33,058 nucleotides of DNA from Rhodocyclaceae bacterium (lineage in GTDB: Bacteria; Pseudomonadota; Gammaproteobacteria; Burkholderiales; Rhodocyclaceae): positions 1 through 33,058 of the forward strand of contig JADFDU010000025.1 of NCBI GenBank assembly GCA_018262775.1. The letters run 5' to 3'. Below, piece by piece: positions 5,508 through 11,192 of the stretch. How positions within the stretch are numbered: position 1 is the first letter of the stretch; each line of letters opens with the position of its first letter. The notes below the pieces were generated by a model. The model searched no databases, had not been told where the DNA came from, and saw nothing but the letters and a program-made list of their open reading frames with translations. A program made the position numbers and the translations under genes.

Positions 5508-6014
5508 CTAATTCTTGTCTTTGAAAGTACGCGCGGTAAGATTTGTTAACTCGTACTCTGTCCAGAAAATGCGCTTCCGCATGGACAGAAACCGCACAAC
5601 ACCGAGATCCCATTCTCCGCTGCCGCCGGCCAATATTGCCATCAGTGGTTTGTTCGTGCGGGATGCCGGCTCTTGGGCGATCCGCGCCAAAGTCCGCTTG
5701 TCCAATGTGCTTGGCGAGTTGTCGCTCTTGGGGTGGGTATGCCAGTCGCCTAGATATGTTTCGCGCCCCTCGGTTGCCCAATAATGGTTTTCTAGTTCGG
5801 CTTGCTGAAATTTCCCGTCTGGCGTGAACCGGAAAAGGCCATGCTTCGCCTTTGGACCAGGGCCGATGACCTTTGTCACTACTGCGGCTCCGCTATCAAC
5901 CTCATAGCCTAGCAGCATGCCACCGGTCTCCAGTGGCGCGTGCTGCTTTGCAAGCTGAAGCATTTCGGCAAAGGCTGTTTCGGCGATCCAGACGTTCGAA
6001 TCACCGGCGCTCAT
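5508..6014 (-). CDS. JAB/JAMM metallopeptidase (Cap3-like deconjugase)
   Basis: The ATG at 6014 lies 14 nt inside the end of the E2-E1 gene and gives 168 aa. All JAMM zinc-site residues are visible: Glu29 in the ETGGMLLG segment, then His92 and His94 in WHTHP, with Ser102 and Asp105 completing H-x-H-P-x7-S-x2-D. In type II CBASS and Bil/Bub systems such peptidases process the modifier precursor or cleave its conjugate, opposing the E1-E2 enzyme. The overlap with the E2-E1 gene implies balanced co-translation. It looks catalytically intact and has no extra domain. It is the last gene of the minus-strand operon. Confidence 0.9.
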   Translation of the reverse strand: MSAGDSNVWIAETAFAEMLQLAKQHAPLETGGMLLGYEVDSGAAVVTKVIGPGPKAKHGLFRFTPDGKFQQAELENHYWATEGRETYLGDWHTHPKSDNSPSTLDKRTLARIAQEPASRTNKPLMAILAGGSGEWDLGVVRFLSMRKRIFWTEYELTNLTARTFKDKN

Positions 6015-7710
6015 GGTCGCGACACTCGGGATGCTTATCGAGCTTGTAGGTCTTCCAGCTAGGCGCAATGGGTGCACCCAGGTCCGACCAGATGTTGACC
6101 ACTCCAACATCCCAGTCAAAGTCGGGATAGCCCTGATCGGCACCGGAACATAGCGTACTGACAGCCAAGCGGACGGCGGCGAGCGTGACGTGATCCATGT
6201 CGAAACCAGCGCCTGTGAACGTCGGGTGGAAGCAACCTACCGGCTGTACGTTAGGCGTATTTGCATGGTGGGGAAGCTGGATCGCTCCATCGCCCAACAT
6301 ATGCTGGTAGCACCTCCAACAGCCTGCAGTCTGCCCCGGAACGACCCGGCCTATGGTTCCACCCCATGCGCCTGGTGTCCCAGTTGCCCAGGTGTAAGGA
6401 ATGCCCCGATCCCGTGCCAGTTCAGAAATATAATTGCTCACGCACCACTCGGCCGTCGCATCGAAAATCAGATCTACACCATCAAGGGCTTCAGGGAGAA
6501 TGTCGAGATCACCGTGGTGCATATCAGAATACTTCGGGCTGCCGATCCGATGCGGCCACGCTTTGAAGTTGCCAAACGGGTATTGCGTGCCGAGAAAATT
6601 GGCGAGCAGCCCTGCTTTATCGAATCCTGCGGCATTCCAACCGAGCAGCCAGCGAGGCGCGTTGCCGAGTTGCACATGGTCGAAGTCGATCATGTGAATT
6701 CCGCCAATGCCTGCTCTCGCCATTTGCCACGCGAAAGCCGATCCAATGCTGCCCAGGCCTACCACGAGTACCTTTTTCGTGAAAATGGGCGCTAGGTTGG
6801 GTGTGCGGGCCTGAAGAACTTTCAAGCTGGCTTGGTCGGACCGCGCGAAATAGCCCCGTATCGTGGCTTGCCCCCGGCGCCCATCCTCCCGCACCTTCTG
6901 GCGAACCATGAAAACCCAGTTGTCGTGGAACCGCTCGTAATCCACTTCTTCTGGAATAAGGAACCCAAGAATGTCGGGGGCGCCATCGAATTGCGGATTG
7001 GCGAGGGCTGGCCAAGCTTTGATGGCGTGCGCTTGCGCTTCATGCTCGTCGAAGGGTAGCGCTACGGACGGGCGAAGCCAGCGACCTTTAGCCGTTTGTG
7101 TGTAGCGGCCCCTGAGCCGATCATCCAGACGCGCGATCACATTCCGCTTTTCGTCCTGAATTTCCAGGACGGCGCACCGGAGAACTGCGTTGGGATTCCA
7201 GCCATCCTCAAGTCCAAGAATTAAGTACCCGCGCGTAAGTGTCTTTGGGATTTCCCAATCGCCGGTGAAAACAACAGCCCCGGGTCGGTAGCGGAAGTAC
7301 CCGGTCACTTGGGAGGCCTCGTGCGCCTCGATGTCTTTGGCGTTGTCGGGTCTGAGGTGAGCTTCAGCAAGTTTGGCGACTTGGGTTTTGAGAAAGCCCG
7401 CCAGCCTGTCGTTCATTGCGCTCCAGTTCTGCTGCGGGTCTTTCAAGAGACAGAGCTGCCCGCTGTGGGGATCCTTGTGCCGCCCACCTGGAAACGACTG
7501 CGAGGTGATCTCGAAGGGGAAGTATGGGTAGGTCTCGGGAAAACGCACTACCAGTTCATGCGTCTCCCCGTTTAAGGGGTAATTGACGGTGATGACAATT
7601 CGGCCCGTCTGTCGCGCAGCCTTATCAATCCGATACTCGTACCCCGCTTCCCCTAGTTCCCGAAATTCCTCCTCCAGGCGCCGAGAGAAGCGGTGAAACC
7701 ACGGCTTCAC
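6001..7710 (-). CDS. Fused E2-E1 ubiquitin-type conjugation enzyme (Cap2-like)
   Basis: This is a 569-aa protein with a GTG start. Residues about 1-130 form an E2/UBC-like domain: Phe-Pro-x-x-Tyr-Pro at 58-62, then His78/His82 and the candidate catalytic Cys87 in SGQLCLL. Residues about 140-300 are a linker domain with alternating strands. From about 312 comes a ThiF/E1 adenylation domain: GLGSIGS (318-324), IDFDHVQLGN with Asp342/Asp344, Asn350 and Arg353 for ATP, DATAEW at 417-422, a CxxC pair at 464/467 that may hold zinc, and Cys493 in GCFHP as a candidate E1 thioester cysteine. The order matches Cap2 of type II CBASS, but no CD-NTase is encoded nearby. It starts 2 nt after the 47-aa gene. 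Confidence 0.9.
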   Translation of the reverse strand: MKPWFHRFSRRLEEEFRELGEAGYEYRIDKAARQTGRIVITVNYPLNGETHELVVRFPETYPYFPFEITSQSFPGGRHKDPHSGQLCLLKDPQQNWSAMNDRLAGFLKTQVAKLAEAHLRPDNAKDIEAHEASQVTGYFRYRPGAVVFTGDWEIPKTLTRGYLILGLEDGWNPNAVLRCAVLEIQDEKRNVIARLDDRLRGRYTQTAKGRWLRPSVALPFDEHEAQAHAIKAWPALANPQFDGAPDILGFLIPEEVDYERFHDNWVFMVRQKVREDGRRGQATIRGYFARSDQASLKVLQARTPNLAPIFTKKVLVVGLGSIGSAFAWQMARAGIGGIHMIDFDHVQLGNAPRWLLGWNAAGFDKAGLLANFLGTQYPFGNFKAWPHRIGSPKYSDMHHGDLDILPEALDGVDLIFDATAEWCVSNYISELARDRGIPYTWATGTPGAWGGTIGRVVPGQTAGCWRCYQHMLGDGAIQLPHHANTPNVQPVGCFHPTFTGAGFDMDHVTLAAVRLAVSTLCSGADQGYPDFDWDVGVVNIWSDLGAPIAPSWKTYKLDKHPECRDHERR

Positions 7711-7712
7711 GA

Positions 7713-7856
7713 TCAGGCCACCGGACGATGTCCGGGAGGACGCGGCGGTTCGTGCGGGCCGATCGGGCGGTTGTCAGGCGGGCCGGGTGGCACATGAGGA
7801 TGCTCGGGACCCGGATGCTGTTTGTCGGGTTTGTGGTCTTTCTGGTCATTGCTCAT
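7713..7856 (-). CDS. Small Pro/His-rich protein, 47 aa
   Basis: An AGGAG ribosome site sits 7 nt before the ATG at 7856. The product has about 30 percent Pro and nine His, with no Cys and no hydrophobic segment: a charged start (MSNDQKDHKPDKQHPGPEH) and then repeated PPGPP, GPHEPP and RPPGH units ending Arg-Pro-Val-Ala. It is predicted to be disordered. It is not a beta-grasp fold and lacks a C-terminal Gly-Gly. Its stop is 2 nt before the E2-E1 start, so it is co-translated with the conjugation enzyme. It could be the modifier or target peptide, a scaffold, or a metal binder. No family name is recalled with confidence. Confidence 0.75.
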   Translation of the reverse strand: MSNDQKDHKPDKQHPGPEHPHVPPGPPDNRPIGPHEPPRPPGHRPVA

Positions 7857-7907
7857 TTGCGTTCTCCTGTAGGAGGCTGGGTTGGAAAGAAGTGGAGCGC
7901 CCTAAAG

Positions 7908-8279
7908 TCAGACGCGCCCCACCAGGGGCAGGCCCTTGGATGTGAAAGCATCCATGGCCAAATGCGTGAGGAAAGCCCCGCCGGCGGCGAGTAGGAGGAA
8001 GCGCGTCAGCGCTTCGCCCTCGGTTTTTGCTTCCCATCGGTAAAGTCGATGGAACACAAGTCCAATCAGGCCTGCACATGCCAGGCTGTGGAAGAAATCC
8101 CGGTGGTTAGGATGCAGAGCCGGCTCCAAAACGTCGGGGAGAGTTCCCAGGGCGGCGCCGACGCAAGCAGCCACCAAGGGGTGGGAGGTTTGCGCGCCAC
8201 TCTTCTGGTCCTCGTGCGCCGCGGCAACGGCCAAGGTGATTGCGGCGCCGAATCTGTGGGTGGCGGCGTTAGGCATCAT
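7908..8279 (-). CDS. YdjM/DUF457-family membrane metal-dependent hydrolase
   Basis: This 123-aa protein has two or three membrane segments (about 10-21, 36-48, 66-80 and 93-108). It carries the signature of the YdjM (LexA-regulated, inner-membrane) putative hydrolase family: His8 near the N-terminus, LPDVLEP (Asp49, Glu52), HRDFFHS (His59, His64), and a C-terminal HLAMDAFTSKGLPL with His106 and Asp110. The clustered His/Asp/Glu probably bind metal at the membrane face. The start overlaps the upstream small gene's stop (ATGA). E. coli ydjM is SOS-induced. In this operon the protein could be the membrane effector, but its activity is unknown. A 51-nt gap separates it from the 47-aa gene. Confidence 0.8.
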   Translation of the reverse strand: MMPNAATHRFGAAITLAVAAAHEDQKSGAQTSHPLVAACVGAALGTLPDVLEPALHPNHRDFFHSLACAGLIGLVFHRLYRWEAKTEGEALTRFLLLAAGGAFLTHLAMDAFTSKGLPLVGRV

Positions 8280-8449
8280 TTCTCCTTCCGCACACCCTTG
8301 AAGGGCTGCCCATTGTTCTTTTGGTCCATGAATTTGCCGGAGTCGGCGTCCCGTTTGACCCAGCGATCCATCAGAGGGTTGAAGGTCTGCGAACGATGCC
8401 GCACCGCGCCGTTGCGATGCCCGTCGCCTTTGGGAGGATTTGTCGCCAT
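8276..8449 (-). CDS. Small basic protein, 57 aa (DGHRxGAVR family)
   Basis: The ATG at 8449 has an AGGTGA site 4 nt upstream. The product is a polar, basic 57-aa protein with the segments GDGHRNGAVRHRSQTFNP, WVKRDADSGKFMDQK and PFKGVRKEK. I recall very similar small uncharacterised proteins widely in proteobacteria, but no named function. The gene is first in the minus-strand operon, and its stop overlaps the DUF457-type gene's start. It has no obvious fold, Cys or membrane segment. Possible roles include nucleic-acid binding, or acting as substrate of the conjugation enzyme; both are speculation. Confidence 0.8.
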   Translation of the reverse strand: MATNPPKGDGHRNGAVRHRSQTFNPLMDRWVKRDADSGKFMDQKNNGQPFKGVRKEK

Positions 8450-8524: not shown

Positions 8525-8553
8525 ATAGTAACGGATCAATAAGATCGCGTCAA
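8525..8553 (-). promoter_or_regulatory. Promoter of the E2-E1/JAB operon
   Basis: On the minus strand, TTGACG (8553-8548) and TACTAT (8530-8525) are separated by exactly 17 bp. They match the sigma-70 -35 (5 of 6) and -10 (4 of 6) elements. The predicted start near 8518 leaves a leader of about 69 nt before the 57-aa gene. Confidence 0.6.
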
Positions 8554-8563
8554 GTGATCAATA
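8534..8563. promoter_or_regulatory. Direct repeat GATCAATA x2, candidate operator
   Basis: GATCAATA occurs at 8534-8541 and 8556-8563, 22 bp apart (about two helical turns). One copy lies between the -35 and -10 of the minus-strand promoter and the other lies just upstream of the -35. This places it well for repression by the divergently encoded WYL regulator. The link to that protein is inferred from position. Confidence 0.45.
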
Positions 8564-8595
8564 TACTGTTTGAAAGTATCATTGTGATTCGATAC
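8563..8595. promoter_or_regulatory. Inverted repeats ATACT-N7-AGTAT and GTATC-N10-GATAC
   Basis: Two overlapping inverted repeats share the half-site AGTATC: ATACT(8563-8567)/AGTAT(8575-8579) and GTATC(8576-8580)/GATAC(8591-8595). They overlap the -35, spacer and -10 of the WYL gene promoter, as an autoregulatory operator would. CapW/BrxR-type WYL proteins are known to bind inverted repeats in defence-operon promoters. Confidence 0.45.
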
Positions 8596-8598: not shown

Positions 8599-8632
8599 CG
8601 CGCTAACTTTAGACTTGGAGGCGCATGGCGCG

Positions 8633-9529
8633 ATGGAAGCCCCCCTTGACAGGATCAGTCACGCACAAATGGAGCGCTTGGCCTACATTGAATTCCGGGC
8701 TTATTTTCTTGGCGAAATCACCCGCAGCGACATTATTAAGAGATTCGGCATTGCAACTGCGGCCGCGACCCGAGACCTGGCGCTGTATCGATCAGTGTCA
8801 AATGACAACATCGAACTTGATTCTCGAACAAAAAGCTACGTTCTCGCCAAGAGCTTCAGACCGATATTCGAGCATCCTGCGGATCGAGTTCTGTCGGCGC
8901 TCTCGCAAGGCTTTGGAGAGGGGATTGGCGGGCAATCACGCTCCCTCATTCCTTGTGAGATTCCCCGGCAGTTGAACTATCCGGACGTTTCAGTCCTTGC
9001 GCCGATCACTCAGGCGATTCACCGCAAGAAGATCGTACGCATTGCATATCACTCGTTCTCCAGTGGTAGGAGCGAGCGCGATATGGTGCCTCTGGCACTT
9101 GCGAACAATGGCTTGCGGTGGCACGTGCGCGCGTTTGATCGCAAGAGATCACGGTTTCTGGATTTTGTTCTGACCAGGATCGAGGCCTCAGAGCTGCAAC
9201 CCGAATGCCGCGTAGAAGAACATGAAGAGGTTGCAAGCGATATTCAATGGAGCCGGATTGTGGAGTTGGAACTGATTCCGCATCCGAAGGAGAGACATCC
9301 CGAAATCGTTGCGATGGACTACGGTATATCGAAAGAGGAGCGCTTACTCAAGGTGCGTGTTCGTGCCGCGTTGGCCGGATATTTCCTTCGACAGTGGAGC
9401 GTCGATTGCTCCGAGGATCATTGCCTAGACGGCCCCGAGATTCGATTGTGGCTTCGCAATCCCTTGTCGCTTTATGGCGTCGAGAGTTCGAACTTGGCGC
9501 CAGGATATGTCTCCCGGGAAAATAAATAG
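8633..9529 (+). CDS. WYL-domain transcriptional regulator (CapW/BrxR type)
   Basis: This is a 298-aa protein. The ATG at 8633 is preferred, with GGAGG 11 nt upstream; a TTG at 8615 is the alternative. Residues about 12-75 are a winged helix-turn-helix (an EITRSDIIKRFGIATAAATRDL recognition region, then a strand-wing). About 120-190 is a WYL Sm-like domain in which the name-giving triad is Trp-His-Val (RWHVRAFD), followed by the FVLTRI strand. Residues 200-298 are a WCX-like dimerisation region. This three-part layout and length are those of CapW and BrxR, which control CBASS and BREX operons. Transcribed divergently from the E2-E1/JAB operon, it probably represses both directions through the shared intergenic repeats. 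Confidence 0.85.
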   Translation: MEAPLDRISHAQMERLAYIEFRAYFLGEITRSDIIKRFGIATAAATRDLALYRSVSNDNIELDSRTKSYVLAKSFRPIFEHPADRVLSALSQGFGEGIGGQSRSLIPCEIPRQLNYPDVSVLAPITQAIHRKKIVRIAYHSFSSGRSERDMVPLALANNGLRWHVRAFDRKRSRFLDFVLTRIEASELQPECRVEEHEEVASDIQWSRIVELELIPHPKERHPEIVAMDYGISKEERLLKVRVRAALAGYFLRQWSVDCSEDHCLDGPEIRLWLRNPLSLYGVESSNLAPGYVSRENK

Positions 9530-9543
9530 ATCGGTGAACCGAA

Positions 9544-10149
9544 ATGAGTTCGGTCAAAGGACAGCTCCCGGTTGCCTGGAAGAACACCGAAAGGTTCAAT
9601 GGGCGGCTACCGCTGAAGCTTGACCGAGAGCAGCACGGTCTTGCCAAGAAATTTCGTAAGCCGCGAAATGCCGATCCATTTCAATCCCTGGCTACGCTCT
9701 ACGATTATCTGGACCGGTTCATGTCATATGCAGTTGGTCTTATGGCGTGCGCAAAAGGATGCTCCTATTGCTGTCACTCGGAGATTGGATTGTCTCAAAT
9801 CGAAGCGGACTACATAACCGCTCGAACCGGCATCCCCGCCAAGCGTATGAGGCAGGATCCAACTCGCGTCGGAGCTGCACCTTGGGTAGATCCGAATAGA
9901 CCCTGCCCATTCTTAAATCTTGGTGCCTGCGCTATCTACGAGTTCCGGCCCATGCTCTGCCGGACCCATGTCAATTTCGATGCCACCAATGCTTTATGCC
10001 GGTTCGACAGTGAAGCAGAATCAATATTGCTGCTTGATCGCGAGAGTAGCCTTCCTGGAGCGATGAAGGCTTATGGAGAATTGGCGGCCAGTTACGGTGG
10101 GGGGATCGGAGACATTCGTGATTTCTTCTGTACTATATATGCGCCATGA
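9544..10149 (+). CDS. YkgJ-family cysteine-cluster protein
   Basis: This 201-aa protein carries the YkgJ-type cysteine cluster: Cys73, Cys76 and Cys77 (KGCSYCCHSE), Cys121 (RPCPFL), Cys129 (GACAIYEFRP), Cys139 (MLCRTH) and Cys152. This pattern is annotated in the family as an iron- or zinc-chelating fold of unknown activity; the ACAIYEFRPMLCR segment is highly typical. It begins 14 nt after the WYL gene and overlaps the next gene by ATGA, so all three are one operon. YkgJ proteins have been linked to metal handling and protein modification, but no role in defence is established. Confidence 0.8.
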   Translation: MSSVKGQLPVAWKNTERFNGRLPLKLDREQHGLAKKFRKPRNADPFQSLATLYDYLDRFMSYAVGLMACAKGCSYCCHSEIGLSQIEADYITARTGIPAKRMRQDPTRVGAAPWVDPNRPCPFLNLGACAIYEFRPMLCRTHVNFDATNALCRFDSEAESILLLDRESSLPGAMKAYGELAASYGGGIGDIRDFFCTIYAP

Positions 10150-11192
10150 ACGGTGCTGCGCATACTACGCACTGTGCTTACTCAATGGGTCCCAGCCGAT
10201 TTCCGGCACATCAAGAGATGGTTAGCAAACGACCGAAAAATCTCTTCAAATATCTGAGTTTCAGCGATAGGCTGCTCCAACAGCTTTGCTACGACCAGGT
10301 CTACTTCGCCGATCCCGTGAGCTTCAATGACCCACTCGACTGCCTACCGGTCGTCGAGGCTGATCTTGCGGCGGTTGACCTCGAGGCGCTGCTTGCACAG
10401 CTCGTGTTGAACAGATCGGCTAAAGAGATCGACGCCGCCATGAAGAAGTTGCGACTGCGCGGTGAGAAGGCGATGGCAAGGCGCGAAAAACTGACCGATA
10501 CAGAGGTACGCCGCCTGATTGGCAACATCAACTATCACGCGACAAATCCAGATCTGAACGACCCGCAGACCTACATTTGCAATGCCCTTAGCCGGGAGAT
10601 TGAACGCGAGTTGCGCGGGGCGCATGAGACTGGTGTCTTTTGTTTGAGCGCAAAATTCGACAGTCCACTAATGTGGTCACACTACGCAGACCAGCATCGA
10701 GGCGTATGCGTCGAATACGGTGTGTCCAGCCTTGCCGCAAAGAAATTGCACCCGGTGGCTTATGGTGATTCACGCAAGGTGAAAGCCAGTCAGATACGCA
10801 ATTGGATTCTAAATGACGATTCTGATGCGCAACAAACGATCGACAAGATCAGTCTGCTCACGAAATCGAAAGAATGGGCATACGAGCGCGAGTGGCGTTT
10901 GTTAGGGCCTGTTGGCCTAAACTACTCACCAATCAGCCTGAAGTCGGTGATCTTCGGTATGCGATGCCCTCAAGTGATCAGGTACACCATCGTGAGGGCC
11001 CTTGAAGGGCGAGCCGACATAAAGTTCTGGGAGATCGCTCAGCCTAGCGATCACTTCAAGCTGAAAAGGGTGAGACTAAACATCGAAGAGATGAAGGCAG
11101 GACTACCCTATTGCTCGGTGGTCGATGAATTCGAGAACCTGGACGCGTTGGAGCACGTCGCTCAGACGGACCCAAAGCTACCTGCAAGTTGA
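10146..11192 (+). CDS. DUF2971 protein
   Basis: This 348-aa protein has the DUF2971 hallmarks: LFKYLSFSDRLLQQL and YFADPVSFNDPLDC near the N-terminus, VFCLSAKFDSPLMWSHYADQHRGVCVEY in the middle, and SKEWAYEREWRLL towards the C-terminus. The start at 10146 overlaps the YkgJ-type stop; an internal ATG at 10218, just before the first DUF2971 motif, is an alternative. The biochemical function is unknown. DUF2971 genes often occur in accessory and defence islands. Long helical segments (about 80-150) separate the two conserved blocks. Last gene of the plus-strand operon; a terminator-like hairpin lies 325 bp on. Confidence 0.8.
   Translation: MNGAAHTTHCAYSMGPSRFPAHQEMVSKRPKNLFKYLSFSDRLLQQLCYDQVYFADPVSFNDPLDCLPVVEADLAAVDLEALLAQLVLNRSAKEIDAAMKKLRLRGEKAMARREKLTDTEVRRLIGNINYHATNPDLNDPQTYICNALSREIERELRGAHETGVFCLSAKFDSPLMWSHYADQHRGVCVEYGVSSLAAKKLHPVAYGDSRKVKASQIRNWILNDDSDAQQTIDKISLLTKSKEWAYEREWRLLGPVGLNYSPISLKSVIFGMRCPQVIRYTIVRALEGRADIKFWEIAQPSDHFKLKRVRLNIEEMKAGLPYCSVVDEFENLDALEHVAQTDPKLPAS

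Follow-up and report, generated by a model that had tools for sequence, protein, structure and literature searches.

A candidate proline-rich modifier peptide encoded next to Cap2-like E2-E1 and JAMM peptidase genes in a Rhodocyclaceae bacterium and at related loci of at least seven phyla

The DNA studied here, called the window below, is a stretch of 33,058 nucleotides (nt) at positions 1 to 33,058 of contig JADFDU010000025.1 from a Rhodocyclaceae bacterium (assembly GCA_018262775.1), whose genome is 91.8% complete. On its minus strand, it carries a small open reading frame (ORF) for a proline-rich peptide, followed by the genes of a fused E2-E1 enzyme and of a JAMM peptidase. By analogy with Cap2 and Cap3, the enzyme of this trio probably activates the C-terminal Ala or Gly of the peptide and likely joins it to lysines of target proteins, and the peptidase would trim or remove the peptide. 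An earlier note, made from the window's sequence, had found no visible substrate for the enzyme; the peptide, one of two tiny proteins mentioned in that note, is probably this substrate, as such an ORF was found at 35 of 35 loci of relatives whose 5' side is covered. The features of the trio are as follows, with lengths in amino acids (aa).

7713-7856, minus strand: proline-rich peptide, 47 aa, candidate modifier; C-terminus HRPVA; AGGAG ribosome-binding site (RBS) upstream
6001-7710, minus strand: E2-E1 fusion, 569 aa, Cap2-like, GTG start (ThiF, 2.3e-18, Pfam)
codon 7450-7452, minus strand: proposed E2 thioester Cys87, within E2-E1
codon 6232-6234, minus strand: proposed E1 thioester Cys493, within E2-E1
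5508-6014, minus strand: JAMM/JAB peptidase, 168 aa, Cap3-like (Prok-JAB, 6.3e-16, Pfam)

The evidence that carries this reading comes from the position of the peptide ORF. Relatives of the enzyme were collected by a scan of genome contigs with an E2-E1 profile, which gave 25 loci, and by whole-genome scans, in which 3 of 369 and 2 of 398 genomes had a match (the window's genome is included in both); plasmids were scanned too. An ORF was accepted as a peptide gene when its product had at least 7 Pro among the final 30 residues and V, Y, L or I followed by G or A inside the final five, and when its stop codon lay between 250 nt 5' and 45 nt 3' of the enzyme start. Every one of the 35 relatives' loci whose DNA covers the 5' side has a proline-rich small ORF directly 5' of E2-E1, at L007 as the end of a larger gene; of these loci, 32 were recognized by the automated rule, two (L073 and L099, the second copy on pNGR234a) by the same rule in a later run, and one (L016) by inspection; at L016 the reading frame of E2-E1 is broken, and the proline-rich ORF is nonetheless seen 5' of it. 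Three loci (L009, L010 and L025) were excluded from this count because contig ends cut off their 5' side, and L027 (outside the family), L026, L028 and L048 (the window itself) and L100 (the same as L036) were left out of the counts as well. The gene order is constant, and the peptide is the only gene besides E2-E1 that is present at each relative's locus with a covered 5' side. The E2-E1 loci span at least seven phyla, as judged from named records: Pseudomonadota, Actinomycetota, Bacteroidota, Bacillota, Chloroflexota, Planctomycetota (Phycisphaeraceae) and Patescibacteria.

The rule rarely fires elsewhere. It gave nothing at nine E1 loci outside the family (0/9), namely the CD-NTase (cGAS/DncV-like nucleotidyltransferase) plasmid loci L038-L040, L042 and L043, the metallo-beta-lactamase (MBL)-type locus L041, the multiubiquitin locus L072, the viral contig L027, and L101 beside Metal_CEHH on pNGR234a; in the window's genome it fires 5' of 1 of 250 ORFs of at least 200 aa. 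Plasmid pNGR234a itself carries two peptide-type E2-E1 loci together with one CEHH-type E1 locus without a peptide (sites at 251.9 kb, 296.8 kb and 397.4 kb). Viral contigs yielded a single distant E1 match (L027, 25% identity) and phage records none. A coding sequence is listed at the peptide site in 1 of the 9 plasmid loci with gene tables, the PLSDB tables being incomplete, and the original records may list more.

The C-terminal ends of the peptides are closely alike. The set of 36 tails comprises 34 loci, the window among them, and the proteins P0126 and P0128; L045 (near-identical to L037) and L099 were not entered. The tails share the end motif P-P-x-x-R-x-V-G/A, in which the last residue is G in 32 and A in 4 (two of the 36 after trimming of residues past the Gly), position -2 is V in 34 and Y in 2, and R at -4, P at -7 and P at -10 are kept in 31, 33 and 34 tails, respectively. 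Two tails extend past the Gly, with the ends VGQQ on a Hymenobacter plasmid and VGR at L073, and look like a precursor needing trimming. The peptides measure 30-59 aa (median 45, late residues discounted), and the tails consist of 35.5% Pro, contain no Cys and no Trp, and are poor in hydrophobic residues other than Val; the peptide is predicted to be disordered. Over the compared part of the ORF, third codon positions account for 102 of 126 nucleotide differences, as summed over six locus pairs (six of eight comparisons, the two that repeat a near-identical locus being omitted). A Shine-Dalgarno match of at least 4 was found at 30 of 32 peptide ORFs vs 23% of random stretches. Start codons were picked by eye for the third-position, tail and RBS analyses. 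These signatures indicate that the peptide ORF is a real coding gene.

The enzyme beside the peptide resembles Cap2 in fold. Its AlphaFold2 model, based on an alignment of 34 rows, has a pLDDT (predicted local distance difference test) of 91.2, and the first-ranked Foldseek match is full-length Cap2 of Enterobacter cloacae (7to3_A; E-value 6.1e-25, TM (template modelling) score 0.62, 16% identity), with an alignment of 624 columns at a root-mean-square deviation of 7.3. Cap2 is also ranked first when the E2-E1 profile is compared with the PDB (2e-23), where the match covers the E1 part. In the VIA-align comparison the top rows are single E1 domains, not the whole chain, and Cap2 is not in the best 50. 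The Prok-E2_B match on the window's enzyme lies below the threshold (0.052, Pfam), and for several relatives Prok-E2_B is among the precomputed domains. All 34 aligned E2-E1 proteins have Cys87 and Cys493, which would, from their position, be the two thioester cysteines. Of 36 aligned rows of the JAMM peptidase, 35 keep Glu29, His92, His94 and Ser102 and 34 keep Asp105, the remainder being gaps, and a JAMM gene with an intact motif is present at 35 of 37 loci; the Cap3 model matches the window's protein with 50 bits, under the curated cut-off of 200. A Cap2-like E2-E1 fusion and a JAMM peptidase with an intact active site, both proposed in the earlier note, are thus borne out.

The functional reading draws on what is known of Cap2 and Cap3 from type II CBASS (cyclic oligonucleotide-based antiphage signalling system). 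Cap2 has been shown to bind the C-terminal Gly of cGAS, a protein without a beta-grasp fold, through a thioester; across 1,583 cGAS proteins from Cap2/Cap3 operons the terminal position shows strong conservation of Gly or Ala, and Cap3 cleaves after the terminal cGAS residue (PMC10097602). The CBASS cyclase of B. cereus is joined via a C-terminal Ala to lysines of PspA (PMC11153139). Since Cap2, the closest enzyme by structure, charges the C-terminal Gly or Ala of a substrate without the ubiquitin fold, the peptide is probably a conjugated modifier that stands in place of both the CD-NTase and a beta-grasp ubiquitin-like protein (Ubl). The peptide shows these features of a substrate.

The tail also occurs on larger proteins. 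At L007:7334-7975, directly 5' of E2-E1, a ThsB_TIR protein (E 1.1e-25) ends in a peptide-type tail, REVG. P0128, a further and divergent TIR protein, also ends in such a tail (62% identical over the searched tail region); its gene may adjoin that of the E2-E1 protein P0107, the longest contig of both being 24,639 bases. Because a TIR protein with the tail occupies the place that the CD-NTase has in CBASS, what is recognized appears to be the tail itself. We lean towards a new class of foldless modifiers conjugated by E1/E2 enzymes, proline-rich 30-59-mers from at least seven phyla, in which the disordered tail would be the unit recognized and could be swapped onto a ThsB TIR protein.

For thioester formation, conjugation, targets, regulation and phage defence, we infer the following course. 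The E1 domain would adenylate the C-terminus of the peptide and load the peptide onto Cys493, from which it would be handed over to Cys87 of the E2 domain and transferred to an amine of a target protein. The JAMM protein would take the peptide off again and would mature the tails with residues past the Gly, such as those of the Hymenobacter plasmid and L073. In the ThsB-fused variants, the TIR protein itself would bear the tail and so correspond to the CD-NTase of type II CBASS. The divergent WYL regulator of the window would probably turn the locus on upon DNA stress.

Several observations weigh against this reading. The tail of the window ends in Ala, not Gly, and in E. coli cGAS a C-terminal Ala is tolerated with a lower conjugation than with Gly (PMC10097602). 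On the enzyme tree, the Ala tails show no clear clustering (2 changes, and 38 of 500 shuffles are equally low). The FastTree tree groups the E2-E1 family and its metagenomic relatives apart from the CBASS enzymes, but the split has a support of only 84, and the MBL-type enzyme is a long branch on the family side. No JAMM is detectable at 2 of the 37 loci, both from Halomonas (L011 and L022), which keep the peptide and E2-E1. Membership in the peptide family rests on position and motif, and with so short and low-complexity a query as the 47-mer, a protein search returned just the 47-mer and one relative, P0126. Finally, the model of the TIR-tail protein, folded from a single sequence, reached a pLDDT of 43 and was not used.

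Flanking genes bear on what else the loci might have in common. From 161 flanking ORFs, picked by a longest-ORF rule and in part spurious, 150 were scanned, and family counts are given among the 25 commonest families of 281 (PADLOC) and of 100 (Pfam). The matches were RmrA (8), capP (5) and capH (3) in PADLOC, and Peptidase_M78 (5) and MFS_1 (3) in Pfam; within this scope the families are scattered, and no gene beyond the peptide, E2-E1 and JAMM was seen to be common to the loci. The peptide might instead be a non-covalent cofactor or pseudosubstrate that gates E2-E1, the true substrate being another protein, and its low complexity and its lysines (0-7 per peptide, none of them universal) are compatible with a pure binding role. 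This is unlikely, as the strictly kept C-terminal V-G/A, the post-Gly extensions in two tails and the cGAS precedent point to C-terminal chemistry, and among the commonest families listed no other one matches more than 8 of the 150 ORFs.

Equally doubtful is an MccB- or PaaA-like modification of the peptide, as for ribosomally synthesized and post-translationally modified peptides, in which the E1 domain would make a small bioactive molecule and not a protein tag. MccB and PaaA are among the E1-fold relatives of the enzyme in the structure and profile comparisons, the proposed substrate is a short peptide, and major facilitator superfamily transporters match 3 of the 150 flanking ORFs. However, a fused E2 with an invariant Cys87, and a JAMM peptidase at 35 of 37 loci, would then have no role, the commonest flanking families include none for transport or tailoring that the loci share, and the tail is fused to whole TIR proteins.

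A decayed or trans-acting type II CBASS, in which Cap2 and Cap3 were left without a CD-NTase or serve a distant one, is very unlikely. The nearest fold is indeed that of Cap2, and three peptide loci (L003, L006 and L015) have a CD-NTase gene nearby, L045 a sub-threshold one. The SMODS domain of CD-NTases was found at E 1e-3 in 4 of 32 genomes or records (3 above the cut-off), and it is lacking at this threshold in the other 28, the window's genome included. Where present, it is encoded on the opposite strand (L003, L015 and the sub-threshold L045) or, at L006, over 4 kb upstream and separated by other genes. Conversely, the five loci with a CD-NTase gene 5' of the E1 gene have no peptide, and invariant active sites are unexpected under decay. 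SMODS, Multi_ubiq and Prok_Ub all gave zero matches in the window's genome; Multi_ubiq and Prok_Ub each occur in 2 of the 32 genomes or records and in none of the peptide loci, being on other contigs or far off. The absence of a CD-NTase and of a Ubl of these two families, pointed out in the earlier note, is thereby confirmed for the window's genome, and neither is a regular part of the relatives' loci. A peptide tag joined through its C-terminus remains the preferred reading of the trio.

Upstream of the trio, two further minus-strand genes and a divergent regulator make up the front part of the locus.

7908-8279, minus strand: YdjM-type membrane protein, 123 aa (PF04307, 3.4e-9, Pfam)
8276-8449, minus strand: S38-like protein, 57 aa (PDC-S38, PADLOC PDLC05010, 1.2e-31 across the entire protein)
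8615-9529, plus strand: WYL-domain (CapW/BrxR-like) regulator, divergent (PF13280, 1.2e-13, Pfam)

The five minus-strand genes are tightly packed, with a 4-nt overlap of S38 and YdjM, a 51-nt gap between YdjM and the peptide, a 2-nt gap between the peptide and E2-E1, and a 14-nt overlap of E2-E1 and JAMM. Two promoter-like sites were found by a promoter scan on the minus strand at 8525-8588, between S38 and the WYL gene, and the terminator scan of the locus gave no terminator-like sites above chance level; both modules of the window are probably on a single transcript. The packing and the CapW/BrxR-type divergent regulator agree with the earlier note. The conserved five-gene neighbourhood that it proposed to search for does not hold, as S38 or YdjM occurs at none of 38 relatives' E2-E1 loci (phmmer, E 0.01, with flanks of about 1.5-10 kb per side and some loci one-sided). 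Since S38 and YdjM are missing there and stand beside other genes elsewhere, the locus is read as a composite of two modules, the peptide-E2-E1-JAMM trio and a WYL-S38-YdjM front cassette. The envelope attack by YdjM as the effector of one five-gene system, which the earlier note had put forward and for which the tight packing and the probable co-transcription in the window would speak, is highly improbable, as YdjM belongs to a separate cassette and has no comparative support as an effector of the trio.

The distribution of S38 indicates that WYL-S38-YdjM is a separable cassette adjoining other defence genes. S38 was found in 13 of 339 genomes of the class, the window's genome counted, and 64 plasmid records carry it as well; a literature search for PDC-S38 gave no paper. 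Of eight larger S38 stretches, five contain YdjM, five a close WYL relative, and none an E2-E1 of the window's type. The neighbours in these stretches include SNF2- or DrmD-like helicases, BrxHI-like helicases and an Orf5-like protein, and in Vibrio gigantis the S38-YdjM pair is followed by SAVED and nucleotidyltransferase genes. The WYL-S38(-YdjM) cassette or its parts lie beside varied defence genes at L046/L060, L047/L061, L049/L062, L066, L067 and L069. Two small genes, similar in size and sequence start (87-100 and 82 aa), are inserted between S38 and YdjM at L060:4088-4610 and L062:9461-10022; PADLOC has no family for the one of them that was scanned. On a Methylomagnum plasmid (L072), S38 is near a multiubiquitin gene and a ThiF-family gene, which form another ubiquitin-type locus.

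An anti-phage defence role of the trio is plausible by analogy. WYL genes are also found beside L008 and L030. In the window, 3' of the WYL gene (9544-11192, plus strand), there are genes for a CxxCxxCC metal-cluster protein and a DUF2971 protein (PADLOC PDC-S31, 5e-48), which fits a defence island.

Ubiquitin-type systems are usually thought to need a folded modifier, and in CBASS an enzyme takes the place of the modifier. If the proposed reading is true, ubiquitin-style tagging would be possible without the ubiquitin fold, with E1-E2 machinery working from a C-terminal tail alone, and the TIR fusion would tie Thoeris-type signalling to conjugation. It would also account for E2-E1/JAMM loci with neither a CD-NTase nor a Ubl, and the trio would be a very small bacterial tagging system. 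An ORF as tiny as this is easily overlooked, which may also have happened to the modifiers of further orphan E1-E2 loci. No description of such a peptide was found in literature titles and abstract openings, a search with poor coverage of subscription journals and preprints, nor is one mentioned in the available part of PMC11354881; the main text of PMC1779556 has the word 'proline' once, in a figure legend on an unrelated matter.

By its membership, the trio is not CBASS, Bil, Bub, Iyer class 6c or pupylation: it has no CD-NTase and is therefore not CBASS, no Ubl was found and it is therefore not Bil or Bub, and it has no CEHH protein and is therefore not class 6c. The different composition claimed in the earlier note thus stands with respect to CBASS, Bil and Bub, but not for its five genes as one unit, which do not co-occur. 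With type II CBASS the trio shares an E2-E1 of the Cap2 fold and a separate JAMM, a (here proposed) substrate gene directly 5' of E2-E1 with Gly or Ala at the substrate's C-terminus, and WYL or CapH/CapP-type regulators near some loci. In contrast to CBASS, the trio is without a CD-NTase and has instead, as its probable substrate, a proline-rich peptide of 30-59 residues without a catalytic domain, and no common effector gene was seen.

Bil (bacterial ISG15-like) and Bub (bacterial ubiquitination-like) systems likewise combine E1, E2 and JAMM activities in a single operon. In Bil the E2 and E1 are separate proteins and in Bub the E1 is fused to JAMM, whereas here E2 and E1 are fused in one chain and JAMM is separate; moreover, the peptide loci contain neither Prok_Ub nor Multi_ubiq, the two beta-grasp Ubl families searched. 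The regulators CapW or CapH+CapP are shared with Bub, where they occur on 219 of 544 operons, for which phage protection is not demonstrated to date (PMC13373217). Operon classes 6a-6c of Iyer also have an E2+E1 protein with a JAB protein, often on mobile elements; class 6a carries an MBL, class 6b a pol-beta NTase, and pNGR234a, the prototype of class 6c, was assigned to 6b and 6c (PMC1779556). The marker of class 6c, the Metal_CEHH gene, is separated on pNGR234a from each of the two peptide-type loci by about 97 kb or more, and Metal_CEHH was found in 1 of the 32 genomes or records, there adjoining another E1. On a Paenibacillus polymyxa plasmid (L041), the MBL-fold protein 5' of a class 6a-like E2-E1 ends in MGGQ and may itself be a C-terminally conjugated substrate.

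Pup is a short disordered protein modifier with a conserved C-terminus and in these respects resembles the peptide, but it is attached by PafA, an enzyme of a different fold, and the window's genome has no match to the Pup ligase family (PF03136), for which the control, Corynebacterium glutamicum, was positive. With Thoeris, finally, the loci share the ThsB_TIR domain of the tail-fused proteins of L007 and P0128; the difference is that here the TIR protein bears the peptide tail and, in L007, is encoded directly 5' of E2-E1.

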